DNA of 64,000 nt from Massilimicrobiota sp. An134 (GTDB lineage: Bacteria; Bacillota_I; Bacilli_A; Erysipelotrichales; Coprobacillaceae): contig NZ_NFLH01000011.1 in NCBI RefSeq assembly GCF_002160815.1, positions 1-64,000 on the forward strand, given 5' to 3'. The notes under the pieces are model-generated. The model was not told the DNA's origin. It saw nothing but the letters and a program-made list of their open reading frames with translations, and made no database searches. The translations under genes and the position numbers were made by a program. Within the stretch, counting starts at the first letter, position 1, and each line of letters starts with the position of its first letter. Positions 31,484 through 60,591 of this stretch are shown here, one piece after another.

Positions 31484-31512
31484 TTGAATGTATAAATACA
31501 AAAATATATACT
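31484..31512 (+). promoter_or_regulatory. Promoter of the lone carB leader
   Basis: TTGAAT (31484-31489), a 17-bp spacer and TATACT (31507-31512). The -10 and spacing match the carAB promoter at 56148-56176. Confidence 0.7.
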
Positions 31513-31541
31513 TATTAAGGATAAGGAAAGGAATGAGAAAA

Positions 31542-31625
31542 ATGATGGATTTTGGTTTAAAAACAACGAATCAAATAGCTGTTTCTCCAGAGTCTTCTTT
31601 TTCTTATTTTTTATATTTGTTATAG
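31542..31625 (+). CDS. carB leader peptide (27 codons)
   Basis: Starts at ATG 31542, 9 nt after AAGGA, and ends at TAG 31623-31625. The peptide ends SSFSYFLYLL, encoded by a 31-nt stretch (31593-31623) with 23 T. The stop codon touches the 5' arm of the terminator. The carA leader peptide shares the start context AAAGGAATGAGAAA and the end SFS-x-FLY. It is probably read as a sensor rather than for its product. Translation is inferred. Confidence 0.72.
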   Translation: MMDFGLKTTNQIAVSPESSFSYFLYLL

Positions 31626-31656
31626 GACATATCATTTGATTTGATATGTCTTTTTT
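31626..31656 (+). terminator. carB leader attenuator terminator
   Basis: GACATATCA (31626-31634) pairs perfectly with TGATATGTC (31642-31650) and is followed by six T. It starts one base after the leader stop codon and ends 20 nt before the carB ATG. A ribosome at the stop codon would cover its 5' arm. Confidence 0.85.
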
Positions 31657-31676
31657 ATGGATAAGGAGGAAAAGAT

Positions 31677-34600
31677 ATGCCAAAAAGAGAAGATGTAAAC
31701 ACAGTATTAGTTATTGGTTCAGGACCTATTATTATTGGTCAGGCTTGTGAATTTGACTATTCAGGAACACAGGCATGTAAAGCATTGAGAAGTTTAGGAT
31801 ACAAGATTGTCTTAGTCAATTCTAATCCAGCGACAATCATGACAGATCCAGAAACTGCTGATGTGACTTATATTGAACCATTGAATTTGAAAAGATTAAC
31901 ACAAATTATTGAAAAAGAAAGACCAGATGCCTTATTGCCTAACTTAGGTGGACAATCAGCATTAAACTTATGTGCTGAATTACATAATGCTGGAGTTTTA
32001 GATAAATACAATGTCAAAGTTCTAGGTGTGCAGGTTGATGCAATTGAACGTGGTGAAGACCGTTTGGAATTCAAAAAAGCCATGAATGAACTTGGTATTG
32101 ATATGGCAAGAAGTGAAATTGCGAATACAGTTGAGGAAGCTTTAGCGATTGCTGATAAATTAGGTTATCCTGTTGTTGTGAGACCTGCTTATACAATGGG
32201 TGGTGCCGGAGGAGGACTTGTTTATAATGTTGAAGAATTAAAAACAGTTGTTTCTCGTGGTTTACAGGCAAGTCTTGTTCATGAATGTTTGATTGAAGAA
32301 TCTATTCTTGGATGGGAAGAATTAGAAGTAGAAGTTGTCAGAGATGCTAAAAACAATATGATTACTGTATGTTTTATTGAAAACATTGATCCATTAGGTG
32401 TTCATACTGGAGATTCTTTCTGTAGTGCGCCAATGTTGACAATTTCTCAAGATGTTCAAGATCGTTTAAAAGATCAGGCTTTTAGAATTGTAGAATCAAT
32501 TGGTGTTATTGGTGGAACAAACGTTCAGTTTGCACATGATCCAAAAACAGATAGAATTGTTGTTATTGAAATTAACCCAAGAACTTCACGTTCTAGTGCT
32601 TTGGCTTCAAAAGCAACAGGTTTCCCTATTGCCCTTGTTTCAGCTATGTTAGCTGCTGGTTTAACTTTAGATGAAATTCCATGTGGAAAATATGGGACTT
32701 TAGATAAATATGTACCAGATGGTGACTATGTTGTTATTAAATTTGCAAGATGGGCTTTTGAAAAATTCAAAGGTGCACAAGATAAACTAGGAACACAGAT
32801 GAAAGCTGTTGGGGAAGTTATGAGTATTGGTAAGACTTATAAAGAAGCTTTCCAAAAAGCGATTCGTTCTCTTGAAATTGGTCAATATGGTTTAGGATAT
32901 GCAAAGAATTTCAATGAATTAACAAAAGAACAATTATTAGAAAAATTAACAGTTCCTACAAGTCAAAGACAATTCATCATGTATGAAGCTTTAAGAAAAG
33001 GAGCAACTGTTGAAGAATTATATGAATTAACAAGTATTAAACATTATTTCATTGAACAAATGAAAGAATTAGTTGATGAAGAAGAAATGTTAAAATCATA
33101 TGCAGGGAAAGAGTTGCCAGTAGATGTTTTAAGACAAGCAAAACAAGATGGTTTCTCAGATAAATATTTAAGTCAGATTTTAAATGTTTCTGAAGATAGT
33201 ATCAGAAATGAAAGAATTGAAAATGGTATTACTCAAGCTTGGGAACCAGTTCATGTCAGTGGTACAAAAGATAGTGCATATTACTATTCTACATATAATG
33301 CCAAAGATCATAGTGATATTCATCATGATAAGAAAAAGATTATGATTTTAGGTGGAGGACCAAACAGAATTGGTCAGGGTATTGAATTTGACTATTGCTG
33401 TGTTCATGCTTCACTTGCTTTAAAGAAATTAGGATTTGAAACAATTATTGTCAACTGTAATCCAGAAACAGTCTCTACTGATTATGATACTTCTGATAAA
33501 TTATATTTTGAACCATTAACATTAGAAGATGTTTTAAGTATTCATGATAAGGAAAAACCAGTTGGTGTGATTGCTCAATTTGGTGGACAGACACCATTAA
33601 ACTTAGCTTCTCAATTAAAAGCCAATGGTGTGCATATTTTAGGAACAACACCTGAAACAATTGATATGGCAGAAGATAGAGATTTATTCAATGAAATGAT
33701 GGAAAAATTAGAAATTCCTATGCCAGAATCAGGAATGGCTGTCAATGTTGAAGAAGCTTTAGAAATCGCTAAAAGAATTGGTTATCCATTAATGGTAAGA
33801 CCTTCTTATGTCTTAGGTGGACGTGGAATGGAAGTTGTTTATGATGATGACAGCTTAAAACAATATATGGCTGCGGCCGTTGGTGTGACACCAGATCGTC
33901 CAATCTTAATTGACAGATTCTTAAATAATGCAATGGAATGTGAAGCAGATGCTATTAGTGATGGAACAAATGTTTTCGTTCCAGCTGTTATGGAACATAT
34001 TGAATTAGCAGGTATTCACTCTGGAGATTCAGCATGTATCTTACCTTCTAAACATATTCCAATGAGACATTTAGAAACAATCAAAGAATATACAAAGAAA
34101 ATCGCGAAAGAAATGAATGTTCGTGGACTTATGAACATGCAATATGCGATTGCTGATGATAAAGTTTATGTTCTTGAAGCCAACCCAAGAGCTTCACGTA
34201 CAGTACCTTTAGTATCAAAAGTATGTAATGTTAATATGGTGAAAATTGCAACTGATATTGTGACAATGGAATTAACTGGTAGAGAATCACCAGTACCAAA
34301 ATTAACTGAAAAGAAAATCCCACATGTTGGTGTTAAACAAGCTGTATTCCCATTCAATATGTTCCCAGAAGTTGACCCAATCTTAGGACCAGAAATGAGA
34401 TCAACAGGAGAAGTGTTAGGATTAGGAAGTTCATTTGGAGCAGCTATCTATAAAGCTGAAGAAGCGACACAAACAATCTTACCAACTGAAGGAAAAGTAT
34501 TAATCAGTGTTAACGATATGGACAAACCACAAGTTGTCTCTCTTGCAAAAGGATACTATGATGCAGGATTTACAATTGTAGCAACAGGAAATACATACGC

Positions 34601-34895
34601 TTTAATTCAAGAAGCAGGTGTACCAGTTGAAAAAATTAAGAAATTAAATGAAGGACGTCCAAACATTACAGATGCCCTTACAAATGGTGAACTTGCTATG
34701 GTGATCAATACACCTCATGGTAAACAAAGTGCTCATGATGATAGCTATATCAGAAAAACAGCTATTAAGATGAGAATTCCATATATGACAAACATCGCTG
34801 CTGCTAAAGCTGCATTAGAAGGAATTATGGAAATGAAGATTCATGGTAGCCATGCAGTCAAATCTTTACAAGAATACCATAGTGAAATTCAATAA
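31677..34895 (+). CDS. carB: Carbamoyl-phosphate synthase large subunit, lone copy
   Basis: 1072 residues with the full two-half architecture: [20 protein letters not shown], the first ATP-grasp domain (RPAYTMGGAGGGLVYN), a helical middle, the second ATP-grasp ([16 protein letters not shown]) and a C-terminal MGS-like regulatory domain. That domain keeps the conventional features IVATGNTYAL, NEGRPNITD and VINTPHGK, which correspond to the UMP-contact region of E. coli CarB. No carA is adjacent, so it would have to share CarA from 56325. It makes carbamoyl phosphate from glutamine-derived ammonia, bicarbonate and two ATP. Its leader has an attenuator. Confidence 0.95.
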   Translation: MPKREDVNTVLVIGSGPIIIGQACEFDYSGTQACKALRSLGYKIVLVNSNPATIMTDPETADVTYIEPLNLKRLTQIIEKERPDALLPNLGGQSALNLCAELHNAGVLDKYNVKVLGVQVDAIERGEDRLEFKKAMNELGIDMARSEIANTVEEALAIADKLGYPVVVRPAYTMGGAGGGLVYNVEELKTVVSRGLQASLVHECLIEESILGWEELEVEVVRDAKNNMITVCFIENIDPLGVHTGDSFCSAPMLTISQDVQDRLKDQAFRIVESIGVIGGTNVQFAHDPKTDRIVVIEINPRTSRSSALASKATGFPIALVSAMLAAGLTLDEIPCGKYGTLDKYVPDGDYVVIKFARWAFEKFKGAQDKLGTQMKAVGEVMSIGKTYKEAFQKAIRSLEIGQYGLGYAKNFNELTKEQLLEKLTVPTSQRQFIMYEALRKGATVEELYELTSIKHYFIEQMKELVDEEEMLKSYAGKELPVDVLRQAKQDGFSDKYLSQILNVSEDSIRNERIENGITQAWEPVHVSGTKDSAYYYSTYNAKDHSDIHHDKKKIMILGGGPNRIGQGIEFDYCCVHASLALKKLGFETIIVNCNPETVSTDYDTSDKLYFEPLTLEDVLSIHDKEKPVGVIAQFGGQTPLNLASQLKANGVHILGTTPETIDMAEDRDLFNEMMEKLEIPMPESGMAVNVEEALEIAKRIGYPLMVRPSYVLGGRGMEVVYDDDSLKQYMAAAVGVTPDRPILIDRFLNNAMECEADAISDGTNVFVPAVMEHIELAGIHSGDSACILPSKHIPMRHLETIKEYTKKIAKEMNVRGLMNMQYAIADDKVYVLEANPRASRTVPLVSKVCNVNMVKIATDIVTMELTGRESPVPKLTEKKIPHVGVKQAVFPFNMFPEVDPILGPEMRSTGEVLGLGSSFGAAIYKAEEATQTILPTEGKVLISVNDMDKPQVVSLAKGYYDAGFTIVATGNTYALIQEAGVPVEKIKKLNEGRPNITDALTNGELAMVINTPHGKQSAHDDSYIRKTAIKMRIPYMTNIAAAKAALEGIMEMKIHGSHAVKSLQEYHSEIQ

Positions 34896-46932: not shown

Positions 46933-48513
46933 ATGTGTTCGATTATGGCGTATTGCGACAGCAATGTAGAAAAAGAGATTTTTTTAAAAGGTTTTGAAAG
47001 AACACATACCAGGGGACCTGATGCTATGCGTATTATTGATACAGGTAAAGGGCTATTGGGATTTCAACGTTTATCCATCATGGGATTAAATGAGTATGGT
47101 ATGCAACCATTTCAAAGAGGGAAGCATTATGTTGTCTGTAACGGTGAAATCTATGGTTTTAGACCAATGAAAGAAGAATTGATGAAGCAGGGCTTTGACT
47201 TTCAAGGGGAGAGTGATTGTGAAATCCTGCTTCCTCTTTATCAAAAAATGGGTGTAGACATGTTTAAAGAATTAGATGGAGAATTTGCATTGATTCTTTT
47301 TGATGGTGATACAAAAGAATTTATTGCTGCTAGAGATCCGATTGGAATTCGCCCATTATTTTATGGTTATGATGATCATCAACACATTGTCTTTGCTTCA
47401 GAAGCCAAAAATTTAGTTGGCATCTGTGATAAGATTGTACCTTTTCCACCAGGACATTATTATCAAAATGGGGAGTTTGTTTGTTATAGAGATATGAGCC
47501 TGGTGGAAAACTATCATCATGATGATTTCAATACAATCTATACAAATATACATGATTTATTAGTCAAAGGTATTGAAAAAAGATTGGATGCAGATGCACC
47601 ACTTGGTTTCTTATTAAGTGGAGGATTAGATTCATCACTTGTCTGTGCTGTGGCTTCTCGTCTATTGAAAAAGCCTATTCGTACTTTTGCAATTGGTATG
47701 GATAAAGATGCCATTGATTTAAAATATGCCAAAGAAGTGGCTGAGTTTATTGGCAGTGAACATACCGAAGTGATTATCACAAAAGATGATGTTCTAAGTG
47801 CTTTAGAACCTGTTATTGCCACTTTAGGAACATATGATATTACAACAATTCGTGCATCTATTGGTATGTATCTTGTCTGTCAGTATATTCATCAGCATAC
47901 AGATATCAGAGTTTTATTAACGGGTGAGATTTCAGATGAATTATTTGGTTATAAATATACCGATTTTGCGCCAAATGCAAAAGAATTCCAAAAGGAAGCT
48001 GAAAAACGTATTCGAGAAATTTATATGTATGATGTCTTACGTGCTGATCGTTGTATTAGTGTTCATTCCTTAGAAGCACGTGTGCCTTTTGGAGATTTGG
48101 CTTTTGTGGATTATGTTATGCATATTGATCCTGCTTTAAAAATGAATAATTATGGAAAAGGAAAATATTTATTGCGTAAAGCGTTTGACAGAGGATATTT
48201 ACCTCAAGATATCTTAATGCGTGAAAAAGCAGCTTTTTCAGATGCGGTAGGACATTCATTAAGTGATGAAATCAAAGCTTATGCGAATAATTATTATAGT
48301 GATCAGGAATTTGAAGAAAAAAGAAAGAAATATGATTTCGCCCAACCATTTACAAAAGAGTCATTATTATATCGTGAAATCTTTGAAAAATATTATCCAC
48401 ATCAGGCACAAATGGTGAAAGGATTCTGGATGCCAAATCCAAATTGGGAAGGCTGTCAGGTCAACGATCCTTCTGCCAGGTTTTTAGAAAATTATGGAGA
48501 TAGTGGAAAGTAG
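46933..48513 (+). CDS. asnB: Asparagine synthase (glutamine-hydrolysing), AsnB type
   Basis: 526 residues from ATG 46933, the start that places the nucleophile Cys at position 2 (MCSIMAYC) and 8 nt after AGAGAGGGG. The Ntn glutaminase domain has HTRGPDAMRI and VCNGEIYGFRPMKEEL. The synthetase domain has FLLSGGLDSSLVCAVASRL (PP-loop) and LTGEISDELFGYKY. It makes asparagine from aspartate, glutamine and ATP. It lies between glnN and gltB in one direction with short gaps, so it is probably co-transcribed. Confidence 0.95.
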   Translation: MCSIMAYCDSNVEKEIFLKGFERTHTRGPDAMRIIDTGKGLLGFQRLSIMGLNEYGMQPFQRGKHYVVCNGEIYGFRPMKEELMKQGFDFQGESDCEILLPLYQKMGVDMFKELDGEFALILFDGDTKEFIAARDPIGIRPLFYGYDDHQHIVFASEAKNLVGICDKIVPFPPGHYYQNGEFVCYRDMSLVENYHHDDFNTIYTNIHDLLVKGIEKRLDADAPLGFLLSGGLDSSLVCAVASRLLKKPIRTFAIGMDKDAIDLKYAKEVAEFIGSEHTEVIITKDDVLSALEPVIATLGTYDITTIRASIGMYLVCQYIHQHTDIRVLLTGEISDELFGYKYTDFAPNAKEFQKEAEKRIREIYMYDVLRADRCISVHSLEARVPFGDLAFVDYVMHIDPALKMNNYGKGKYLLRKAFDRGYLPQDILMREKAAFSDAVGHSLSDEIKAYANNYYSDQEFEEKRKKYDFAQPFTKESLLYREIFEKYYPHQAQMVKGFWMPNPNWEGCQVNDPSARFLENYGDSGK

Positions 48514-48526
48514 AAAGGATGATTTG

Positions 48527-51500
48527 ATGAAAGAGTATAATCAGGGATTGCATCATGTCAGAGAACATGATGCCTGTGGTATTGGAGCTGTCGTTCATAT
48601 TGATGGACGACAGGATTATCAGGTTATTGATCAGGCACTTACAATTGTCGAAAAACTAGAACATCGTGCTGGAAAAGATGCCAGTGGAGAAGTCGGTGAT
48701 GGGGTTGGAATCTTATTACAGATTTCACATCGTTTCTTTAATAAAGTTGCACATAATCTCCATATCACTTTGCCTCAACCTTATGATTATGCTGTGGGAA
48801 TGTTCTTTTTACCACAGGATACACTGACAAGACAAAAAGCTATGAAAACTTTAGAACGCATTGTCATGAAACATCAGGCCACATTTCTAGGGTGGCGAGA
48901 AGTGCCATGTCATGAAGATATCTTAGGTCAAAAGGCCAAGGATTGTATGCCTTATATTATGCAATGCTTTATTGAAAAACCTAAAACTTGTCAACAAAGA
49001 ATGGACTTTGAAAGAGTATTATATGTGATTCGTCGTGAATTTGAAAAATCTTCACCACAGACATATGTGGTTTCATTATCTTCATCAACAATTGTCTATA
49101 AAGGGATGTTTCTTGTTCATCAATTAAGACAATTCTATGATGATTTACAAGATCATGATTATCATAGTGCCATAGCATTGGTTCATTCACGCTTTTCTAC
49201 CAATACCAATCCAAGCTGGCAAAGAGCACATCCTAATCGTATGATTGCTCATAATGGAGAAATTAATACAATTAGAGGTAATGCGAATCGTATGCTGGCC
49301 AGAGAAGAAACATTAGATTCAAAGTATTTTTCATCAGATATGACAAAGGTTTTCCCAATTGTTGATGTACATGGTTCAGATTCAGCCATGCTGGATAATA
49401 CGTTAGAGTTCCTATATATGAATGGGATGCCATTAGCTAAAGCTATGATGCTATTGATTCCAGAACCATGGAAAAATACAGCCATGTCACAAGAGAAAAA
49501 AGATTTTTATCATTATTATGCCACAATGATGGAACCATGGGATGGACCTGCTGCTATTTTGTTTTCTGATGGTATTTCCATGGGAGCTACTTTAGATAGA
49601 AATGGTTTAAGGCCATCACGTTATTATATTTTAGATGATCAGACTTTGATTTTATCATCAGAAGTTGGCGTTTTAGATATTGATGAAAGTCATATTGTCA
49701 AAAAATCACGTCTTCAACCAGGAAAAATGTTATTAGTAGATACACAAAAACAGCAGCTGATTGAAGATGATATATGTAAAATGAGCTATGCTAAAGAACA
49801 TCCTTATGGAGAATGGTTGGATTATTATTTATTACATTTAAAAGATTTACCGGCGCCAGATAAAAAATCTCATATTCATAGTCAAAGTGATCGTGATATC
49901 TTATATAAGATTTTTAGTTATACATATGAAGATGTCAAAGATATGATTTTACCTATGGCCAAAAATGGTGTAGAACCTACAGCATCCATGGGAACAGATA
50001 TTCCACTTGCTATGTTGAGTCAAAAACATCCAACATTATTTCATTATTTTAAACAACAGTTTGCTCAAGTGACCAATCCACCTATTGATTCTTTAAGAGA
50101 AGAAGTGGTTGTAGATACAACGGTATATTTAGGATCTAATGGAAACTTATTACAGGATCAATCTGATAATTGTCAGGTCTTAGAAATTAATAATCCGATT
50201 TTAGACAGTCGTGATATGGATAAACTCAAACAGTTAAATCGTGATGGTTTCCATAGTCAAGTCATTTCTTTATTATATTACAAAGGGATTTCCTTAACAG
50301 AAGCTTTAGATCAGTTATTTCTTGATTGTGATAAAGCTTATCGTCAAGGTGTCAATATCTTAATTCTTTCTGATAAAGGTGTCGATGATAATCATTTGGT
50401 GATTCCTTCATTACTGGCTGTTTCAGCTGTAGAAAGTCATTTGGTCAAAACTAAAAGAAAAACAGCGATGTCCATTGTTTTAGAAAGTGGTGAACCACGT
50501 GATGTTCATCAATTTGCCTGTTTATTAGGTTTTGGTGCTACAGCTATTTATCCATATCTGGCCCATGAATGTATCATGGAAATGATTCAGCTTAATATGT
50601 TGGATAAAGAGGAAAATAAGGCTATTGAAGATTATAATCATGCCATTTTAAAAGGTATTGTTAAGATTGCCGCGAAGATGGGTATTTCTGCTTTACAGTC
50701 ATATCAGTCAGCACAAATCTTTGAAGTTGTTGGTTTAAAAGAAGATATTATGGAAAACTATTTCCCTCATACAGTTTATCGTGTGGGAGAAAAAGGTTTG
50801 ACAGATATTGAAAATGATATTCGTTACTATCATGATCATGCCTTTGACCCATTAGGATTAAAGACAGATACATCATTAAAAAGTTTAGGTTTCCATAAAT
50901 TGAGACGTGGACCACAAAGTGAAGTGCATATGTATAGTCCTGAAACAATCGTTTTACTTCAAAGAGCAACTCAAAGTGGTGATTATGCATTATTTAAAGA
51001 ATACTCTCATCAATTAGAAAGTCAACCCTTTGCTTTACGTCATTTATTAGAATTTGATACAACACAAAGACATTCTATTCCTCTTAATGAAGTAGAAAGT
51101 GTTGAAGAGATTGTCAAACGTTTTAAAACAGGAGCAATGTCTTATGGCTCTATTTCTAAGGAAGCTCATGAATGTTTAGCAATTGCAATGAATCGCTTAG
51201 GAGGAAAATCAAATTCTGGAGAAGGTGGAGAAAATCCAGAAAGATTATATACAGAAGCCAATAGTGCCATTAAACAGGTGGCCAGTGGTCGTTTTGGAGT
51301 CACAAGTGAATATCTGGTCAGTGCCAAAGAAATTCAAATTAAAATGGCACAAGGTGCAAAACCGGGTGAAGGAGGCCATTTACCAGGACAGAAAGTTTAT
51401 CCTTGGATTGCCAAAACACGTTATTCAACACCTGGAGTCACTTTGATTTCACCACCACCACATCATGATATTTATTCTATTGAAGATTTGGCACAATTGA

Positions 51501-53008
51501 TTTATGACTTAAAAAATGCCAATCGTGATGCGCGTATTTCTGTCAAACTTGTTTCAGAATCAGGTGTAGGAACAATCGCATCGGGGGTGGCCAAAGCTGG
51601 GGCTGAAGTTATCTTGATTTCTGGTTATGATGGAGGAACTGGAGCAGCTCCGCAAAGTTCGATTCATTATGCGGGATTGCCTTGGGAATTAGGACTAGCT
51701 GAAGCTCATCAGAGTCTTATCGAAAATGATTTAAGAACACGTGTTGTTTTAGAAACAGATGGAAAATTAATGACAGGAAGAGATGTAGCTGTGGCAGCAT
51801 TATTAGGTGCAGAAGAATTTGGTTTTGCGACAGCACCATTAGTGACAATGGGTTGTGTGATGATGCGTGTCTGCAATCTTGATACTTGTCCAGTCGGTAT
51901 CGCAACACAAAATGCTGAGCTTAGAAAACGTTTTAAAGGGAAACCAGAATATGTTATGAATTTTATGATTTTTATTGCTCAGGAATTACGTGAAATCATG
52001 GCACAGCTGGGATTCCATAGCATAGATGAAATGATAGGACATATGGAAGTTTTGAAAGTCAAACCAGAATATCAGGAATTAGAATCATTCTTTACAAAAA
52101 AGGATCTCAATGTGCATTTCCAAAAAGAAAATGTTTTTGATTTCCACTTAGAAGATAGTCAGGATTTAAAAGTCTTGTTACCAAGATTCCTTTCTTATCT
52201 GGAAACAAAACAGCCACATCAGGAGACAATACATATTTCCAGCCTTGATCGTAGTTTAGGAACATTGCTGGGAAGTGAAATCACAAAACGTTTCCAAAAC
52301 AATCTGCAAGATGATACTTATCAGATTGAATGTATTGGTGGAGCCGGACAATCATTTGGAGCCTTTATACCAAAAGGTCTCACAATGCAAGTTGAAGGAG
52401 ATGCCAATGATTATTTTGGAAAAGGATTATCTGGTGGAAAACTGATTATTCATCCTTCTTCAAATGCTCAATTTGTGGCTCAAGATAATGTCATTGTTGG
52501 AAACGTTGCCTTATATGGAGCAACATCAGGAGAAGCCTATATCAGTGGTCGTGCTGGTGAACGTTTTGCGGTCCGTAATTCTGGTGCGATTGCTGTGGTA
52601 GAAGGCTGTGGTGATCATGGACTTGAATATATGACTGGTGGAAAAGTGGTTGTTTTAGGAAAAACAGGAAAGAACTTTGCGGCAGGAATGAGCGGGGGTA
52701 TCGCTTATGTCTTAGATAAAGATCATGATTTATATTTACGTTTAAATAAAGAATTAGTCACAATGCAGGAAGTCAAACAGCATAAGGATATAGAAGATTT
52801 AAAATTGTTATTACAAAAACATGTGCAATATACAGGGTCATTACTGGCTAAAGATATCTTGGAAAGTTTTGAAGCATGGATACCACATTTTAAAAAAATT
52901 GTGCCAGTTAATTATGCGTGTATGTTAGATAATATTGAAAGCTTTGAAAAACAAGGCTATTCACATGATGAGGCTGCATTAATGGCCTTTAAAGAAGTTC
53001 ATCAATAG
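48527..53008 (+). CDS. gltB: Glutamate synthase large subunit
   Basis: 1493 residues from ATG 48527, after AAAGGATG. The N-terminal glutaminase has REHDACGIGAVVHIDG (nucleophile cysteine after a short propeptide). A central domain and the FMN barrel follow (GGENPERLYTEANSAIKQV; GHLPGQKVYPWIA; LISGYDGGTGAAPQSS). The cysteines for the 3Fe-4S cluster are in GCVMMRVCNLDTCPVG. The C-terminal beta-helix is GXGXG-rich (GDHGLEYMTGGKVVVLG). With gltD it converts glutamine and 2-oxoglutarate to two glutamates, using NAD(P)H. gltD follows after 11 nt. Confidence 0.97.
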   Translation: MKEYNQGLHHVREHDACGIGAVVHIDGRQDYQVIDQALTIVEKLEHRAGKDASGEVGDGVGILLQISHRFFNKVAHNLHITLPQPYDYAVGMFFLPQDTLTRQKAMKTLERIVMKHQATFLGWREVPCHEDILGQKAKDCMPYIMQCFIEKPKTCQQRMDFERVLYVIRREFEKSSPQTYVVSLSSSTIVYKGMFLVHQLRQFYDDLQDHDYHSAIALVHSRFSTNTNPSWQRAHPNRMIAHNGEINTIRGNANRMLAREETLDSKYFSSDMTKVFPIVDVHGSDSAMLDNTLEFLYMNGMPLAKAMMLLIPEPWKNTAMSQEKKDFYHYYATMMEPWDGPAAILFSDGISMGATLDRNGLRPSRYYILDDQTLILSSEVGVLDIDESHIVKKSRLQPGKMLLVDTQKQQLIEDDICKMSYAKEHPYGEWLDYYLLHLKDLPAPDKKSHIHSQSDRDILYKIFSYTYEDVKDMILPMAKNGVEPTASMGTDIPLAMLSQKHPTLFHYFKQQFAQVTNPPIDSLREEVVVDTTVYLGSNGNLLQDQSDNCQVLEINNPILDSRDMDKLKQLNRDGFHSQVISLLYYKGISLTEALDQLFLDCDKAYRQGVNILILSDKGVDDNHLVIPSLLAVSAVESHLVKTKRKTAMSIVLESGEPRDVHQFACLLGFGATAIYPYLAHECIMEMIQLNMLDKEENKAIEDYNHAILKGIVKIAAKMGISALQSYQSAQIFEVVGLKEDIMENYFPHTVYRVGEKGLTDIENDIRYYHDHAFDPLGLKTDTSLKSLGFHKLRRGPQSEVHMYSPETIVLLQRATQSGDYALFKEYSHQLESQPFALRHLLEFDTTQRHSIPLNEVESVEEIVKRFKTGAMSYGSISKEAHECLAIAMNRLGGKSNSGEGGENPERLYTEANSAIKQVASGRFGVTSEYLVSAKEIQIKMAQGAKPGEGGHLPGQKVYPWIAKTRYSTPGVTLISPPPHHDIYSIEDLAQLIYDLKNANRDARISVKLVSESGVGTIASGVAKAGAEVILISGYDGGTGAAPQSSIHYAGLPWELGLAEAHQSLIENDLRTRVVLETDGKLMTGRDVAVAALLGAEEFGFATAPLVTMGCVMMRVCNLDTCPVGIATQNAELRKRFKGKPEYVMNFMIFIAQELREIMAQLGFHSIDEMIGHMEVLKVKPEYQELESFFTKKDLNVHFQKENVFDFHLEDSQDLKVLLPRFLSYLETKQPHQETIHISSLDRSLGTLLGSEITKRFQNNLQDDTYQIECIGGAGQSFGAFIPKGLTMQVEGDANDYFGKGLSGGKLIIHPSSNAQFVAQDNVIVGNVALYGATSGEAYISGRAGERFAVRNSGAIAVVEGCGDHGLEYMTGGKVVVLGKTGKNFAAGMSGGIAYVLDKDHDLYLRLNKELVTMQEVKQHKDIEDLKLLLQKHVQYTGSLLAKDILESFEAWIPHFKKIVPVNYACMLDNIESFEKQGYSHDEAALMAFKEVHQ

Positions 53009-53019
53009 GAGGGTAATGT

Positions 53020-54474
53020 ATGGGAAAAGCTACAGGATTTTTAGAGTTTGATAGAGAAGATAATTTCACTGAATCACCAGAAACAAGAATCGCTGATTTT
53101 CAGGAATTCCACATCCCTCTTTCTGATGAAAAACGTCGTCAGCAAGGAGCTCGCTGTATGAATTGTGGTGTTCCGTTTTGTCAGTCAGCCATTGAAATCA
53201 ATCATATGGTTACAGGTTGTCCTTTACATAACCTCATTCCTGAGTGGAATGATGAAATCTTTCACCATAATGATGAACGTGCACTTTCACGTCTATTAAA
53301 AACAAATCCCTTCCCAGAGTTTACAGGACGTGTGTGCCCCGCATTATGTGAAAAGGCATGTGTATGTGGATTGCATGGAGATGCCGTGACTATTAAAGAT
53401 AATGAATTATTTATTATTGAAAAGGCTTATCAGAATCAATTGATGAAAGCTGAACAGTCGCCAATATGTTCATTTAAAAAAGTAGCTGTTATTGGCAGTG
53501 GTCCTACAGGATTAACGGTAGCCTATAAATTAAATCAACGTGGACATCAGGTCAGTGTTTTTGAAAAAGATGATCGTTTAGGAGGATTATTGATGTATGG
53601 TATTCCTCAAATGAAACTTGAAAAACAGATTATTGAACGTCGTATTCAATTAATGAAAGAAGAAGGGGTTCAGTTTTATACCAATGTTCATGTTGGACAA
53701 GATATAACGAAAGAAGAATTATTAAAAGAATATGATGCAGTTGTGTTATGTTGTGGAGCGAAAAAAGCACGTGATTTAAATGTACCAGGGAGACAAGCTA
53801 AAGGAATTTACTTTGCAGTGGATTTTCTCAAAAGCGTAACACAAGATTTATTAAATCAAAGTCCTTTACGTATTGATGCTAAAGGAAAACATGTGGTTGT
53901 TGTAGGAGGTGGAGATACGGGTAATGACTGTGTTGGAACATGTATTAGACAAGGATGTGCATCAGTTACACAGCTGGAAATGATGCCATCTCCGCCTCAT
54001 CAAAATACACGTCCATGGCCAATGTGGCCTGATGAATTAAAAACAGATTATGGACAGGAAGAAAGTCTGGCTGTTTTTAAGCAGGATCCACGTGTTTATG
54101 CAACAACAATTAAAGAATGTATTGAAGAAGATGGGCAACTCAAAGCTGTCAAAACGATTCAGGGGAGAATAGTTGATGGTCAATGGGTTGAAAAAGAAGA
54201 TAGCGAAAAAATGCTGAAGGCAGATTTGTTGCTGATTGCAGCAGGATTTGTAGGTATTGAAGATGATATTAAAGAGCAGTTTGATTTATCTGTGAATCAA
54301 CGTCAGGTTGTCATGACAATGCCAAAGAGCTATGCGACAAAGGAAGAGAAGATTTTCGTTGCAGGGGATATGCATCGCGGTCAATCTCTTGTTGTCTGGG
54401 CTATTGCGGAAGGAAATGAATGCGCCAAAGAAGTGGATCGATATTTAATGGGATATAGTTATATGAATGAATAA
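53020..54474 (+). CDS. gltD: Glutamate synthase small subunit
   Basis: 484 residues. The N-terminal Fe-S region has RCMNCGVPFCQ, GCPLHNLIPEWN and GRVCPALCEKACVCG. The FAD-binding site is VIGSGPTGLTVAYKLNQRGH, the NAD(P)H site VVVVGGGDTGNDCVG, and FVAGDMHRGQSLVVWAIAEG is the FAD-binding end motif. It passes electrons from NAD(P)H to GltB. AGGAGGG precedes the ATG. The amt gene follows after 25 nt. Confidence 0.97.
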   Translation: MGKATGFLEFDREDNFTESPETRIADFQEFHIPLSDEKRRQQGARCMNCGVPFCQSAIEINHMVTGCPLHNLIPEWNDEIFHHNDERALSRLLKTNPFPEFTGRVCPALCEKACVCGLHGDAVTIKDNELFIIEKAYQNQLMKAEQSPICSFKKVAVIGSGPTGLTVAYKLNQRGHQVSVFEKDDRLGGLLMYGIPQMKLEKQIIERRIQLMKEEGVQFYTNVHVGQDITKEELLKEYDAVVLCCGAKKARDLNVPGRQAKGIYFAVDFLKSVTQDLLNQSPLRIDAKGKHVVVVGGGDTGNDCVGTCIRQGCASVTQLEMMPSPPHQNTRPWPMWPDELKTDYGQEESLAVFKQDPRVYATTIKECIEEDGQLKAVKTIQGRIVDGQWVEKEDSEKMLKADLLLIAAGFVGIEDDIKEQFDLSVNQRQVVMTMPKSYATKEEKIFVAGDMHRGQSLVVWAIAEGNECAKEVDRYLMGYSYMNE

Positions 54475-54499
54475 TGAATAGAGTTAGGGGGTCTATGAT

Positions 54500-55738
54500 A
54501 TGAATTCAGGGGATATTGGTTTTATGTTAATATGTAGTGCTCTGGTGTTATTAATGACACCAGGCCTGGCTTTCTTTTATGGGGGACTTGTTCGCCGTAA
54601 AAATGTTGTCAATACAATGATGACATCTGTTTTTGTCATTGGTATTGCAGCTATTATGTGGGCATTATTTGGATACTCACTGGCTTTTGGAAATGATCAT
54701 TTTGGAATTATTGGAGATTTCAGCTGGTTAGGTTTACAGGGCATTGAAGGAAGTACAACAGATTATGTTTCTACAATTCCTCATTTAGAGTTTGCTATTT
54801 TCCAAATGATGTTTGCAATCATTACACCTGCTTTAATAACGGGGGCAGTTGCTGGTCGTATGAAATTTAAAGCTTTGTTTTTGTTTATTATTCTTTGGTC
54901 AGTCATTGTTTATTATCCAATGGCTCATATGGTCTGGGGACTTGGTGGCTTTCTGGCTAAAATTGGTTCGGTAGACTTTGCTGGTGGAAATGTTGTTCAT
55001 ATCAGTTCTGGTGTCAGTGCATTAGTTTTATGTATTGTCCTAGGAAAACGCAAAGACTATTTACGCGTACAATATCATGTTCATAATATTCCATTTGTTG
55101 TCTTGGGAGCCAGTTTACTGTTGTTTGGATGGTTTGGTTTTAATGCAGGCAGTGCCTTACAGGCCAATGAACTGGCTGTTCATGCCTTTATAACAACTGG
55201 TTTATCAGCAGCAGCTGGAATGCTGTCATGGATGGGTATGGATGTATGGATGAGTGGAAAACCAACACTGGTAGGAAGTGTAACAGGTATGGTTGTCGGT
55301 CTTGTTGCCATTACCCCGGGAGCAGGATATGTGCCTATCTGGGCATCAATCATTATTGGGCTTGTTGGAAGTCCTATTTGTTATCTGATGATTTCTAAAG
55401 TGAAACAGAAATTGGGCTATGATGATGCTTTGGATGCTTTTGGATGTCATGGTATTGGCGGTATCTGGGGTGGTATTGCGACTGGATTGTTTACACAAAC
55501 GTCTATTAACGATGTTGCCAGATGGAATGGTTTGTTCTTTGGAGATACACAATTATTCATAGCACAAATCATCAGTATCGTTGTTACGATTGCTGTGGCT
55601 ATTATTGGAACGCTTATTTGTATAGCCATTGTCAGATGTTTCACAACACTTCGTGTTTCTAAACAGGAAGAACAAAAAGGATTGGATATTTCTGAACATC
55701 AGGAAAATGCATATCCATCTTTTAATGGATTGGATTAG
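54500..55738 (+). CDS. amt: Ammonium transporter
   Basis: 412 residues with eleven predicted helices. PGLAFFYGGLVRRKNVVNTMM is the typical first helix start, here cited as PGLAFFYGGLVRRKN. The conserved pore histidines are expected in NVVHISSGVSAL and FGCHGIGGIWGGIATG. It moves ammonium through a trimeric channel. The P-II gene lies 13 nt downstream, the usual amt-glnK pair, in which P-II blocks the pore when nitrogen is plentiful. Confidence 0.97.
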   Translation: MNSGDIGFMLICSALVLLMTPGLAFFYGGLVRRKNVVNTMMTSVFVIGIAAIMWALFGYSLAFGNDHFGIIGDFSWLGLQGIEGSTTDYVSTIPHLEFAIFQMMFAIITPALITGAVAGRMKFKALFLFIILWSVIVYYPMAHMVWGLGGFLAKIGSVDFAGGNVVHISSGVSALVLCIVLGKRKDYLRVQYHVHNIPFVVLGASLLLFGWFGFNAGSALQANELAVHAFITTGLSAAAGMLSWMGMDVWMSGKPTLVGSVTGMVVGLVAITPGAGYVPIWASIIIGLVGSPICYLMISKVKQKLGYDDALDAFGCHGIGGIWGGIATGLFTQTSINDVARWNGLFFGDTQLFIAQIISIVVTIAVAIIGTLICIAIVRCFTTLRVSKQEEQKGLDISEHQENAYPSFNGLD

Positions 55739-55751
55739 GAGGACAGTGAAT

Positions 55752-56099
55752 ATGATCAAAATTGAAGCGATTGTGAGAGAAGAAAAATATGAAGAAGTGA
55801 AAGAAGCGCTTGCTCGTATTCATGTGAATGGTATGACAGTTTCTCAGGTAATGGGATGTGGCACACAGCATGGCTATACAGAATATGTTCGTGGTCAGGA
55901 AGTTGAAGTCAATATGTTGCCAAAGATTAAATTTGAAATTGTTGTCAGCAGTGAAGAATGGGCTGAAAAAACAATTGAAGCCATTTGTCAGGCGGCTTAT
56001 ACTGGAGAAGTAGGAGATGGTAAGATTTTTACTTATAAGCTTGATAATGCTATGAAAATTCGTACACGTGAAACGGGCGAAAAAGCAATTAATGAGTAA
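55752..56099 (+). CDS. glnK: P-II family nitrogen regulator, GlnK-like
   Basis: 115 residues from ATG 55752; upstream in-frame codons belong to the amt region. Typical P-II body: MIKIEAIVREEKYEEVKEAL, T-loop HGYTEYVRGQEVEVN, then LPKIKFEIVV and B-loop GEVGDGKIFTYKL with IRTRETGEKAI. Position 51, the tyrosine uridylylated in enterobacterial P-II, is valine here, though Tyr42 and Tyr45 lie in the loop. Control is probably by ATP, ADP and 2-oxoglutarate binding alone. Partner: the Amt just upstream, perhaps also GSIII. Confidence 0.95.
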   Translation: MIKIEAIVREEKYEEVKEALARIHVNGMTVSQVMGCGTQHGYTEYVRGQEVEVNMLPKIKFEIVVSSEEWAEKTIEAICQAAYTGEVGDGKIFTYKLDNAMKIRTRETGEKAINE

Positions 56100-56147
56100 T
56101 GATTAATAATTTAAAATTATGATAATAAAAAATTATGAAAAAATATC

Positions 56148-56176
56148 TTGATAATTATGTTAAATTTGACTATACT
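56148..56176 (+). promoter_or_regulatory. carAB promoter
   Basis: TTGATA (56148-56153), a 17-bp spacer and TATACT (56171-56176). The -10 is the same as in the lone-carB promoter. Confidence 0.75.
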
Positions 56177-56207
56177 ATACAAGAATAAATAGAAAGGAAT
56201 GAGAAAT

Positions 56208-56276
56208 ATGGTGGGAAAACGAGTTATGGATACAACGATTGTTAGAACATCTTTTTCTCATTTTTTATATTTCTAA
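56208..56276 (+). CDS. carA leader peptide (22 codons)
   Basis: Starts at ATG 56208, 9 nt after AAAGGA, and ends at TAA 56274-56276. It ends RTSFSHFLYF, encoded by a T-rich stretch (56250-56274). The stop codon touches the terminator's 5' arm, as in the lone-carB leader. Only the start context and the C-terminal part are conserved between the two peptides; the middle differs, which supports function through the nucleotide sequence or ribosome position. Translation is inferred. Confidence 0.72.
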   Translation: MVGKRVMDTTIVRTSFSHFLYF

Positions 56277-56305
56277 AAACATATCTTTTATGGATATGTT
56301 TTTTT
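56277..56305 (+). terminator. carAB leader attenuator terminator
   Basis: AAACATATC (56277-56285) pairs perfectly with GATATGTTT (56293-56301) and is followed by a run of T to 56305. It starts right after the leader stop codon and ends about 20 nt before the carA ATG. Confidence 0.85.
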
Positions 56306-56324
56306 ATGATATAAGGAGGTAACA

Positions 56325-57404
56325 ATGAAAGCATATTTGATATTAGAAGATGGACATGTCTTTGAAGGTGAACATTTTGGTGGTCATAAGGAAGTCATTA
56401 GTGAGTTTGTCTTTAATACATCTATGACAGGATATCTGGAAGTCTTGACAGATCCTTCATATGCTGGACAAAGTGTTGTGATGACATATCCATTGATTGG
56501 AAATTACGGTGTTTGTTTGGAAGATCAAGAATCAAGACAACCATATGTAGAAGGTTTTGTTGTGAATGAATTGGCAAGATTTGGAAGTCATTTTAGAAAA
56601 AATATTGAATTAGAAGATTATTTAAAACAACATGATATTATAGGTATTCAAGGTGTTGATACACGTTTTATCACAAAATTAATTAGAAATGAAGGTTGTA
56701 TGAATGGTTTAATTACAACACATCATTATGAAGACCTTGAAGAAGTCTTAAAACGTATTCGTGAATATAAAGTTAGCGGTGTTGTTGATCAGACAACATG
56801 CTCAAAACCTTATGTTTTGGGTCAAGGAAAATATAAAGTTGCCTTATATGATTTTGGTGCCAAGAAAAATATTGCGAGAGAATTGGTGAAAAGAGATTGT
56901 GAAGTGACAGTTTTCCCTGCACATACACCTGCTCAAATTATTCTTGATGGACATTTTGATGGGATTATGCTTTCTAATGGACCTGGGGATCCAGCAGAAT
57001 GTCATGAAATCATTGAAAATGTGAAGATACTAAGTCAAAGTGGCATTCCTATTTTTGCTATCTGCTTAGGGCATCAGCTGATGGCATTGGCGCACGGATT
57101 TGAAACAGAAAAGATGACATATGGTCATCATGGCGCCAATCATCCAGTTAAAGACTTAAGTACAAATCGTGTTTATATTTCAACACAAAATCATAATTAT
57201 GTTGTCAAAGAAGAATCATTGGATAATCAAGTAGCAAAAATGTGGTTCCAAAATGTCAATGATGGCACATTAGAAGGTATTGAATATTTACAAAAACCAA
57301 TTAAAACAGTGCAGTTTCATCCAGAAGCATGTGCTGGACCATTAGATACATCATATTTATTTGACGAATTTATCAAAATGATGGGAGGAAATCAAAATGC
57401 CTAG
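56325..57404 (+). CDS. carA: Carbamoyl-phosphate synthase small subunit
   Basis: 359 residues. The N-terminal domain begins [19 protein letters not shown], with [20 protein letters not shown]. The C-terminal class I glutaminase has [11 protein letters not shown], the nucleophile in [15 protein letters not shown] and the pair [11 protein letters not shown]. It supplies ammonia from glutamine to CarB through a tunnel. It overlaps carB by 8 bp. It is the only carA in the window, so it may serve both CarB copies. Confidence 0.97.
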
Positions 57405-60400
57405 AAATCATGATATTCAAAAAGTATTAGTGATTGGGTCTGGACCAATTATTATTGGACAAGCTGCTGAATTTGATTATGCAGGAACACAAGCTTGTCG
57501 TGCTTTAAAAGAAGAAGGAATAGAAGTTGTACTCATTAATTCCAATCCAGCCACAATCATGACAGATAAAGATATTGCTGATAAGGTTTATATAGAACCT
57601 TTAACTGTACCGGTTGTCAAACATTTAATTGAAGTTGAAAAACCAGATAGTATCTTACCAACGCTTGGAGGACAAAATGCTTTAAATATTGCGATGGCTT
57701 TGGCTGATGAAGGATTCTTAGAAAAACATCATGTCCGTACGATTGGGACTTCAACAGATACAATCAAACTGGCTGAAGATAGATTAGAGTTTAAAACATT
57801 AATGGAAAAGATTGGAGAACCATGTGCTGCTTCAATTGTCGTGAATCATGTAGATGAAGCCATTGAGTTTGCGAATAAAATTGGTTATCCAGTTGTTATT
57901 AGACCAGCATATACATTAGGAGGAACAGGTGGCGGAATTGCCAATAATGAAGAAGAATTACATCATATTTGTTCTAATGGATTGCGTTTATCACGTGTGA
58001 GTCAGTGCCTCATTGAAAAAAGTATTGCAGGATGGAAAGAAATTGAATATGAAGTGATGCGTGATGGACATGGCAACTGTATTACAGTATGTAATATGGA
58101 AAATTTAGATCCAGTTGGTGTACATACAGGAGATAGTATTGTTGTAGCACCAAGTCAGACTTTATCTGATAAAGAATATCAGATGTTAAGAAGTTCTGCT
58201 TTAAATATTATTACAGCGCTTAATATTCAAGGTGGATGTAATGTGCAGTATGCTTTAAATCCTGATAGTTTTGAATATTGCGTTATTGAAGTCAATCCAC
58301 GTGTTTCACGTTCTTCAGCTTTAGCTTCAAAAGCAACAGGTTATCCAATCGCCAAACTGGCAGCGAAAATTGCCTTAGGATATACATTGGATGAAATTAA
58401 AAATGCAGTTACTGGAAAAACATATGCTTCTTATGAACCGACGTTAGATTATATTGTTTGTAAGATTCCAAAATGGCCATTCGATAAATTTGTTGGGGCA
58501 TCTAGAAAACTAGGAACACAGATGAAAGCCACAGGAGAAGTCATGAGTATTGCTCATAATTTTGAAGGTGCATTTATGAAAGCTTTACGTTCTCTCGAAC
58601 AAAATGTTTATGATTTACATATTCCTGAAGTCGATGGACTTTCATTAGATGAATTAAAAGTCAAATTAAAAGATGTTGATGATCATCGTATCTTTGTAGT
58701 AGCACAGGCTTTAAGACAAGGAATGAGTGAACAGGAAATTCATGATATAACACGTATTGATTGCTGGTTTATTGATAAAATCAAACATTTAACGGAAGTC
58801 GAAAAACAATTAAAAACAGAACCACTGACTGTTGAATTATTAAAACTTGCTAAAAGATTAGAATTCCCAGATCAAATTATTGCTAAGTATACAAATCATA
58901 CAACTCAAGATATTCATCAAATGAGATTAGATCATCATATCGAAGCTGTTTATAAAACAGTAGATACATGTGCAGCTGAATTTGATGCAACAACACCTTA
59001 TTATTATTCTGTATATGGAGAACATAATGAAGTTGATCCTCGTGATGATAAAAAGAAAATTATGGTTTTAGGTTCAGGACCAATCCGTATTGGACAAGGG
59101 ATAGAGTTTGATTATTGTTCTGTTCATTGTGTCTGGGCGTTAAAGGAAGCTGGCTATGATACAATTATTGTGAATAATAATCCAGAAACAGTATCGACAG
59201 ACTTTGATATTGCTGATCGTCTGTATTTTGAACCATTGACACCTGAAGATGTGGAAAGTATTGTGCGTTTAGAAAAACCAGATGGTGCCATTGTACAATT
59301 TGGTGGACAAACAGCCATCAAGCTTACAAAAGCCTTAATGGAAATGGGAGTTCCTATTTTAGGAACATCAGCTGATAACGTAGATGCAGCAGAAGATCGT
59401 GAAAGATTTGATGAAATCTTACAGCGTTGTGATATAGATCGTCCAAGAGGTTCAACAGTTTTTACAACAGAAGAAGCTTTAGAGGTTGCTAATCGTTTAG
59501 GATATCCAGTGCTTGTCAGACCTTCTTATGTATTAGGTGGAGCTGGAATGGAAATTGCTTTAAATGATGGTGATATCAAGAAATTCATGGAAATCATTAA
59601 TCGTCAATATCAGGAACATCCTATCTTGATTGATAAATATTTATCTGGTAAAGAAGTTGAAGTCGATGCTATCTGTGATGAACATGGTGTATTGATTCCA
59701 GGTATCATGGAACACGTAGAACGTGCAGGAGTGCATAGTGGAGATAGTATCTCAGTATATCCACCACAAAAGATTAAACAGGAAATTAAAGATGTGATTG
59801 TGGATTATACACAAAGACTAGCAAAAGCGTTACATGTCATTGGATTGATTAACATTCAATTTATTGTTTATGAAGATCAAGTCTATGTTATTGAAGTGAA
59901 CCCACGTTCTTCACGTACTATTCCTTATATTTCTAAGGTTACTGATATTCCTGTGGTAGATGTCGCAACACATGTCATTATGGGAAAAACAATCAAGGAA
60001 CAAGGATATGAATATGGATTGGCTAAAGAAAAAGAAACAGTGGCTATTAAGATGCCAGTCTTCTCATTTGAAAAGATTACTGGTGCAGAAATCAGCTTAG
60101 GCCCTGAAATGAAATCTACAGGAGAAGTTTTAGGTGTGTCTAAAGACTTTGATGAAGCCATTTATAAAGCATTTATTGCGACAGGTATTGATTTACCAAA
60201 GAAAAAGAATATTATCTGTACGATTAAAGATAGTGCTAAAGAAGAATTCCTACCAATTGCGAAACAATATCATAAGTTTGGTTATGATATTTATGCAACA
60301 ATTGGAACATTTACGTATCTTATTGAACATGGAATTCCTGCTCATCTTGTCAATTACATTGCTGATAAGAAGAATACAATCTTTGATTTAATGTTAACTG

Positions 60401-60591
60401 ATACAGTTGATTTAATCATTGATATACCAACAAGAAACAATAATTTAAAAGATGGATTTATGATTCGTCGCTTTGCGGTAGAAGCAGGTATTCCAATTTA
60501 TACATCATTGGATACAGCTCAAGCATTAATTAACTGTCTTGAAAAAAGACATCATGGTGATACATCACTTATTGATATAACAAAAATTTAA
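57397..60591 (+). CDS. carB: Carbamoyl-phosphate synthase large subunit, carA-linked copy
   Basis: 1064 residues with the same two-half architecture: [36 protein letters not shown] and [16 protein letters not shown]. The C-terminal MGS-like domain is divergent: it keeps ATIGTFTYL, but the GRP element reads ADKKNTIFD and the INTP/INTT element reads IIDIPTRNN. Loss of those UMP-contact positions suggests weaker or different allosteric control than in the lone copy. It overlaps carA by 8 bp (ATG 57397 after GGGAGGAAATC) and ends at a terminator. An arginine-side role is possible but unproven. Confidence 0.95.

Follow-up and report, generated by a model that had tools for sequence, protein, structure and literature searches.

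The window analysed here, a stretch of 64,000 nucleotides from Massilimicrobiota sp. An134, carries a complete lone carB (NF003671, 1505 bits), and all of the parts that the initial annotation had named in front of this gene (a promoter, a leader ORF, a T-rich stretch, a stop codon and a terminator) were located at 31484-31676 (Table 1). The T-rich stretch holds 23 T in the 31 nt at 31593-31623, which is the maximal T density of the + strand and is reached at only three places over the 64 kb of that strand. The terminator begins immediately 3' of the leader stop codon and was the sole terminator detected within 31-32 kb, where 0.3 were expected. By itself, the promoter scan performed at about chance level, with 8 promoters found and 6.0 expected; in most relatives, a TATACT-type -10 element lies about 80-120 nt 5' of the hairpin. 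An alternative in-frame ATG at 31533 would extend the leader ORF to 30 codons, but it is an unlikely start because it lies too near the Shine-Dalgarno (SD) sequence AAAGGA. We found that the folded leader is more stable than its shuffled versions (z = -3.6, with 0 of 200 shuffles as good). Searches of the leader against the curated Rfam families, riboswitches included, returned no match, and neither did a search for phage origin.

Table 1. Features of the two leaders in the window and of the genes behind them (P1, predicted pairing of the U-rich tract with the SD/start region of its own leader).
Feature	Position	Strand	Details
Promoter, lone carB leader	31484-31512	+	TTGAAT 31484-31489, 17 nt, TATACT 31507-31512; the -10 TATACT recurs in most relatives
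P1 5' arm	31519-31556	+	Purine-rich transcript start; contains leader SD AAAGGA 31527-31532 and start codons
Leader ORF	31542-31625	+	27 codons, MMDFGLKTTNQIAVSPESSFSYFLYLL and stop; ATG 31542, TAG 31623-31625; maintained relative to shuffles
U-rich tract, P1 3' arm	31586-31622	+	
Intrinsic terminator	31626-31656	+	9-bp stem 31626-31634/31642-31650, 7-nt loop, six T 31651-31656
carB Shine-Dalgarno	31663-31669	+	AAGGAGG; outside (downstream of) the terminator
Lone carB	31677-34895	+	Carbamoyl-phosphate synthase large subunit, 1072 aa; putative controlled gene
Promoter, second copy	56148-56176	+	TTGATA, 17 nt, TATACT
P1 5' arm, second copy	56186-56223	+	Leader SD AAAGGA 56193-56198
Leader ORF, second copy	56208-56276	+	22 codons, MVGKRVMDTTIVRTSFSHFLYF and stop
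U-rich tract, P1 3' arm, second copy	56238-56274	+	
Terminator, second copy	56277-56306	+	AAACATATC-TTTTAT-GGATATGTTTTTTT
carA	56325-57404	+	Carbamoyl-phosphate synthase small subunit; first gene behind the second leader
carB2	57397-60591	+	Second large subunit

Two things had been missed initially, namely a second copy of the leader in front of carA (56148-56306) and a long pairing between the SD/start region of the leader and its U-tract, which we call P1. The attenuator is not specific to a lone carB, since carA-carB2 has one too. In the second copy, the terminator arms pair as AAACATATC/GGATATGT. Since CarB2 and the lone CarB are only 46% identical, the two leaders did not arise trivially by recent duplication of the entire gene. 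Within 48494-57404 of the window, carAB and its leader are situated directly behind an apparent nitrogen-assimilation cluster, comprising, as read, gltB-gltD, an ammonium transporter and a P-II-like protein.

We found candidate leaders upstream of carA and/or a lone carB in 20 of 20 Coprobacillaceae genera. When upstream regions were inspected without the leader pattern, the same layout was present in front of the lone carB of Longibaculum, Thomasclavelia, Faecalibacillus, Beduini and others, and it was not seen in the more distant Clostridia inspected. The terminator pattern ACATATC..GATATGT occurs in 37 of the 43 Coprobacillaceae genomes, nearly always before carA or a lone carB, and a reversed control of the pattern hardly ever matched. 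A covariance model built from 17 leaders also matches 37 of the 43 genomes, at sites before carA or a lone carB; it matches none of the 252 other genomes of the order, and among 344 genomes of the phylum its matches fall in Coprobacillaceae alone. The six genomes missed by the model have candidates that were found by pattern (G035, G074 and G080) or by eye (G034, G022 and, in part, G039), so that every one of the 20 genera has at least one. The stems of two carA leaders differ in sequence, that of G022 being ACACGTTACC/GGTGACGTGT with the ORF abutting it and that of G064 GCATATC/GATATGC, which indicates that the terminator is kept as a structure. Together, these comparisons show that the ORF, the U-tract and the stop-to-hairpin spacing are conserved across Coprobacillaceae. 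One carA leader, L165 in G047, looks degenerate, with P1 and the U-tract mostly lost and the terminator and carB2 intact. In a single Massilimicrobiota leader, L014, the ORF stops short of the hairpin, and carB2 of the same genome is split over two frames with internal stops (G001:C1:1416210-1419106), which is consistent with decay of the whole unit.

The stop codon of the leader ORF lies at -9 to +1 nt from the hairpin in 41 of 54 leaders, compared with 8.6 (maximum 17) among shuffled leaders on each of which the choice of start was freely repeated, a comparison that ignores kinship among genomes. Most leader ORFs end at or just 5' of the hairpin, with L187 as an exception, and in some leaders of genera g5, g6 and g8 the stop codon lies inside the hairpin. 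Judged by this comparison with shuffles, the leader ORF is under clear selection. The SFSxFLY peptide, on the other hand, does not hold up as the conserved feature, since it occurs only in the genus and a few relatives, and in other genera the same nucleotides fall into different reading frames. A search for the pattern SFS[HY]FLY in 295 genomes of the order recovered leaders in the genus only, and the other matches that were inspected are due to chance. The conserved TCATTTTTT..TATTT is read as ..HFLYF (L002), ..SFFYIS (L010) and ..LIFHIC (L177/L178), which covers all three frames, and selection therefore appears to act on nucleotides, not on amino acids. Across genera, this use of frames speaks against both amino-acid attenuation and a functional peptide. 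The codons of the tract contain 1019 T, compared with 953 predicted by synonymous usage in the eleven reference genes of the window (sd 9.6, with related genomes counted as independent), while C is as predicted. There is no T excess over codon usage in the 5' part of the leader ORFs, and the T content of the leaders is 58% at -38 to -5 compared with 29% upstream.

Duplex prediction and minimum-free-energy folding gave a substantial P1 duplex in 53 of the 54 leaders, the exception being L165. P1 and the terminator coexist in 52 of the 54 minimum-energy full-length folds, and we therefore rejected the idea that P1 is an antiterminator competing with the terminator. RNAalifold recovers both helices unprompted. 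Since MAFFT misaligns the U-tract in some genera, we counted pairs in a well-aligned subset of 17 rows (A2), in which 94% of P1 cells pair and three P1 pairs have changed on both sides. When the partner is shifted by 1-3 columns, pairing over the whole structure falls from 95% to 47-68% in the aligned subset. Outside A2, the exchange is clearer, the arms being AAUGAGAAA/UUUCUCAUU in most genera and AAUGGUAAA/UUUACUAUU in genus g5, and in the Faecalibacillus-type carB leaders the P1 5' arm is shifted upstream (AGCGAAA/UUUCGCU), the SD being covered by a second helix (AGGAGGCC/GGGCCCUU). Cognate arms pair at -18.2 kcal/mol compared with -14.3 kcal/mol for arms combined across genera (p = 9e-6, with one value per genus and type). 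The loop between the arms is variable in both sequence and length.

Since purine-rich SD sequences and U-rich tracts pair readily, part of P1 is expected from composition. The T fraction in the tract is 0.68 at paired and 0.52 at unpaired positions, and some of its U-richness may serve pairing. At columns 14 and 15 of A2, 17 of 17 rows have U opposite a G of the SD, where C would pair better. In simulated folding of the growing transcript, the leader SD stays mostly unpaired (mean probability 0.89-0.69) as long as the transcript ends at least about 30 nt short of the hairpin, and this probability drops to 0.19 as the tract emerges; when the body of the ORF is shuffled, it ends at 0.41. The ribosome site of the leader is thus predicted by folding to be open until the U-tract emerges and closed from then on.

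The adjacency of stop codon and terminator is not diagnostic here because the ordinary genes of the window show it too, their terminators starting a median of 3 nt after the stop codon and within 10 nt in 9 of 11 cases. In Bacillus subtilis, such spacing goes with a polymerase that outruns the ribosomes, known as runaway transcription (PMC7858274). Given this link and the spacing of the ordinary genes, a coupled attenuator at this locus needs something to hold the polymerase back, and the U-tract would do so at low UTP. When a stop codon was placed 5 bp ahead of a terminator in E. coli, termination dropped from ~90% to <10% (PMC4824070).

PyrR protein was found over the curated cut-off (profile NF003549, 138 bits) in 1 of 43 Coprobacillaceae genomes, compared with 144 of 252 genomes in the order's other, sister family. 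The best score in the source genome is 45 bits, below the cut-off of 138, and weak matches of 20-51 bits were set aside as other phosphoribosyltransferases. We found no PyrR-binding RNA (RF00515) over cut-off in the 43 genomes, nor any in the carB leader. The only PyrR-bearing genome of the 43, G064 (L181, L198 and L220), has a weak PyrR RNA match before pyrB-carB, and its carA still has a U-tract leader.

All targets of the leader are carbamoyl-phosphate synthase genes. pyrB is present in 41 of the 43 genomes. We did not accept the Massilimicrobiota pyrB operon as a further member, since pyrB, pyrC, pyrK and pyrD follow coaD without a leader; pathway control at this level may therefore rest on carbamoyl phosphate. 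The pyrB leaders of other genera were also rejected because they are of a different, antiterminator type. In Thomasclavelia, Longibaculum and relatives (L241, L242, L244, L245, L247, L248 and L251), a 5' GGTATAAT or GGTATAT can pair with ATTATACC, which doubles upstream of pyrB as the 5' arm of the terminator. This pyrB attenuator is similar to the pair of antiterminator and terminator that accompanies the PyrR RNA of G064 but lacks the PyrR loop, and it is perhaps the remnant of a PyrR attenuator. Arginine was rejected as the signal, since leaders are present in genomes without argH (e.g., G057, G062, G022 and G064).

Together, the comparative data support the architecture and the target genes, the existence of P1, the absence of PyrR, and selection that acts on the ORF rather than its peptide, while termination, translation of the leader and UTP as the signal are what we infer from these data and from E. 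coli pyrL. We consider it fairly probable that the leader is a UTP-sensitive transcription attenuator that depends on the ribosome and permits transcription of carbamoyl-phosphate synthase genes at low UTP. When UTP is ample, RNA polymerase would pass quickly through the U-rich tract, the tract would pair with the SD/start region of the leader so that no ribosome follows, and the terminator would fold and end transcription before carB or carA. When UTP is scarce, the polymerase would stall in the tract, which would not yet be available for P1; a ribosome would load on the open leader, translate as far as the stop codon at the base of the hairpin and occlude the 5' arm of the terminator, allowing read-through into the car genes. 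The functional analogy to UTP-sensing, translation-coupled attenuation that was drawn initially survives as the best-supported reading in view of the conserved parts and the lack of PyrR, and the peptide and the pyrL geometry do not. The findings named initially as refuting it, a lack of conservation in relatives or a PyrR-binding consensus, were not obtained.

Since the SD would be open until the tract emerges, the time taken to synthesize the U-tract would be the time allowed for ribosome loading, and low UTP would lengthen it. We propose more tentatively, as a possibility that falls somewhat short of an even case, that the U-tract plays two parts, its rate of synthesis reading UTP and the finished tract closing the ribosome-binding site of the leader, so that loading races against SD closure in a convergent replacement of PyrR. 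If true, this design would permit attenuation even where polymerase normally outruns the ribosome. The attenuator probably arose separately from pyrBI and pyrE of E. coli.

The U-tract might instead be an anti-SD strand and nothing else, the signal then being not UTP but the availability of ribosomes, the growth state or some factor that acts on P1. Such a role would account for a P1 that is conserved, shows compensatory changes and has shifted as one piece in the Faecalibacillus-type carB leaders, as well as for the more U-rich paired part of the tract and the predicted closure of the SD upon tract emergence. However, it does not explain why U is retained opposite the SD G at columns 14 and 15, why T exceeds codon usage and stays above 50% outside the helix too, or why only carbamoyl-phosphate synthase genes are targeted in a family that has almost no PyrR, and we regard it as unlikely. 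U-rich RNA is commonly bound by proteins, and P1 and the terminator form a compact conserved structure, as might be expected if a protein or small molecule bound the leader RNA (PyrR-like, a U-rich-RNA binder or a riboswitch) and the ORF were incidental. Binding of this kind is nonetheless improbable, since the variable P1 loop leaves no aptamer core, Rfam gives no match, PyrR is absent from 42 of 43 genomes and the ORF is clearly selected.

F, S, L and Y abound at the ends of the peptides, which could suggest classical amino-acid attenuation through Phe, Ser, Tyr or Leu codons, but the use of three frames (HFLYF, SFFYIS and LIFHIC) leaves no conserved codon run and none of these amino acids is a product of the target, so that we give this explanation very little credence. 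It is harder still to believe that the ORF encodes a small protein, has a terminator to itself and lies ahead of the car genes by chance: ordinary genes here also have terminators abutting their stop codons, but the peptides vary between genera while the RNA is conserved, the element is found only before carA/carB1, and the promoter scan shows no second + strand promoter between the terminator and carB. Control by UTP at initiation, through start-site switching or U stuttering, has a precedent in the UTP-dependent reiterative transcription of E. coli carAB (PMC6245113). Since the predicted 5' ends here are purine-rich and without a T run, and since the ORF, P1 and the terminator would stay unexplained, we consider it highly improbable. 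The attenuator sensitive to UTP and dependent on the ribosome is the reading that we compare with known systems below.

In E. coli, the pyrL ORF runs through the terminator, and the ORF at pyrE ends just before the hairpin; to our knowledge, SD closure by a U-tract is part of neither the pyrBI nor the pyrE model. Calling the leader pyrL-like, as was done initially, suits its short ORF, U-rich tract and terminator but not its geometry, since the ORF normally ends before the hairpin as at pyrE. We suggest that the element works like pyrBI and pyrE, with the geometry of pyrE rather than pyrL, and we claim no membership by descent; no sequence relation was seen between the car leaders and gammaproteobacterial pyrBI. 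With pyrBI, where pyrL works through UTP-dependent pausing, the element would share a short leader ORF, a U-rich template slowing the polymerase at low UTP and an intrinsic terminator (PMC10135430). With rph-pyrE, where the spacing between stop codon and attenuator is important (PMC2784333), it would share a translated ORF ending near an intrinsic terminator, a pyrimidine gene downstream and UTP as the signal, which is only proposed here. On the other hand, the ORF at pyrE is the full gene rph, whereas here it is a leader of 20-30 codons that has a promoter to itself and a pairing that sequesters the SD, and the targets are car genes.

PyrR attenuators of Gram-positives (RF00515) serve the same pathway through terminator control before pyr and car genes, but Coprobacillaceae are without PyrR RNA over cut-off and almost without PyrR, and the sensor proposed here is not a protein. 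In the ribosome-dependent leaders of Firmicutes, which are also Gram-positive, translation of a leader ORF likewise determines the outcome at an intrinsic terminator, but there the signal acts on the ribosome, as with histidine at the hisS/hisZ leaders (PMC2965389), branched-chain amino acids at the Staphylococcus aureus ilv leader peptide (PMC5794164) and an antibiotic at the vmlR leader (PMC9226507), whereas the signal proposed here slows the polymerase. E. coli carAB P1 has the same target genes and is UTP-dependent (PMC6245113), but acts at initiation without an attenuator or leader peptide. In the open-licence literature searched, we found neither a Firmicutes ribosome-dependent leader for UTP nor an account of this element. 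What is new here, as far as alignment and folding indicate, is the pairing of the U-tract with the leader's own Shine-Dalgarno/start region.

Ribosome-dependent UTP attenuation is textbook knowledge for enteric bacteria, and Gram-positives are taught as the PyrR case. Our findings suggest that Coprobacillaceae, which are mostly without PyrR, carry an apparently separately evolved UTP-type leader with a built-in Shine-Dalgarno switch on carbamoyl-phosphate synthase. This adds an RNA element that is absent from Rfam, and it is relevant to the question of whether transcription can be under translational control in lineages whose polymerase is thought to run ahead of the ribosomes. It also predicts that uracil starvation would induce the car genes in gut bacteria such as Thomasclavelia, Faecalibacillus and Massilimicrobiota.
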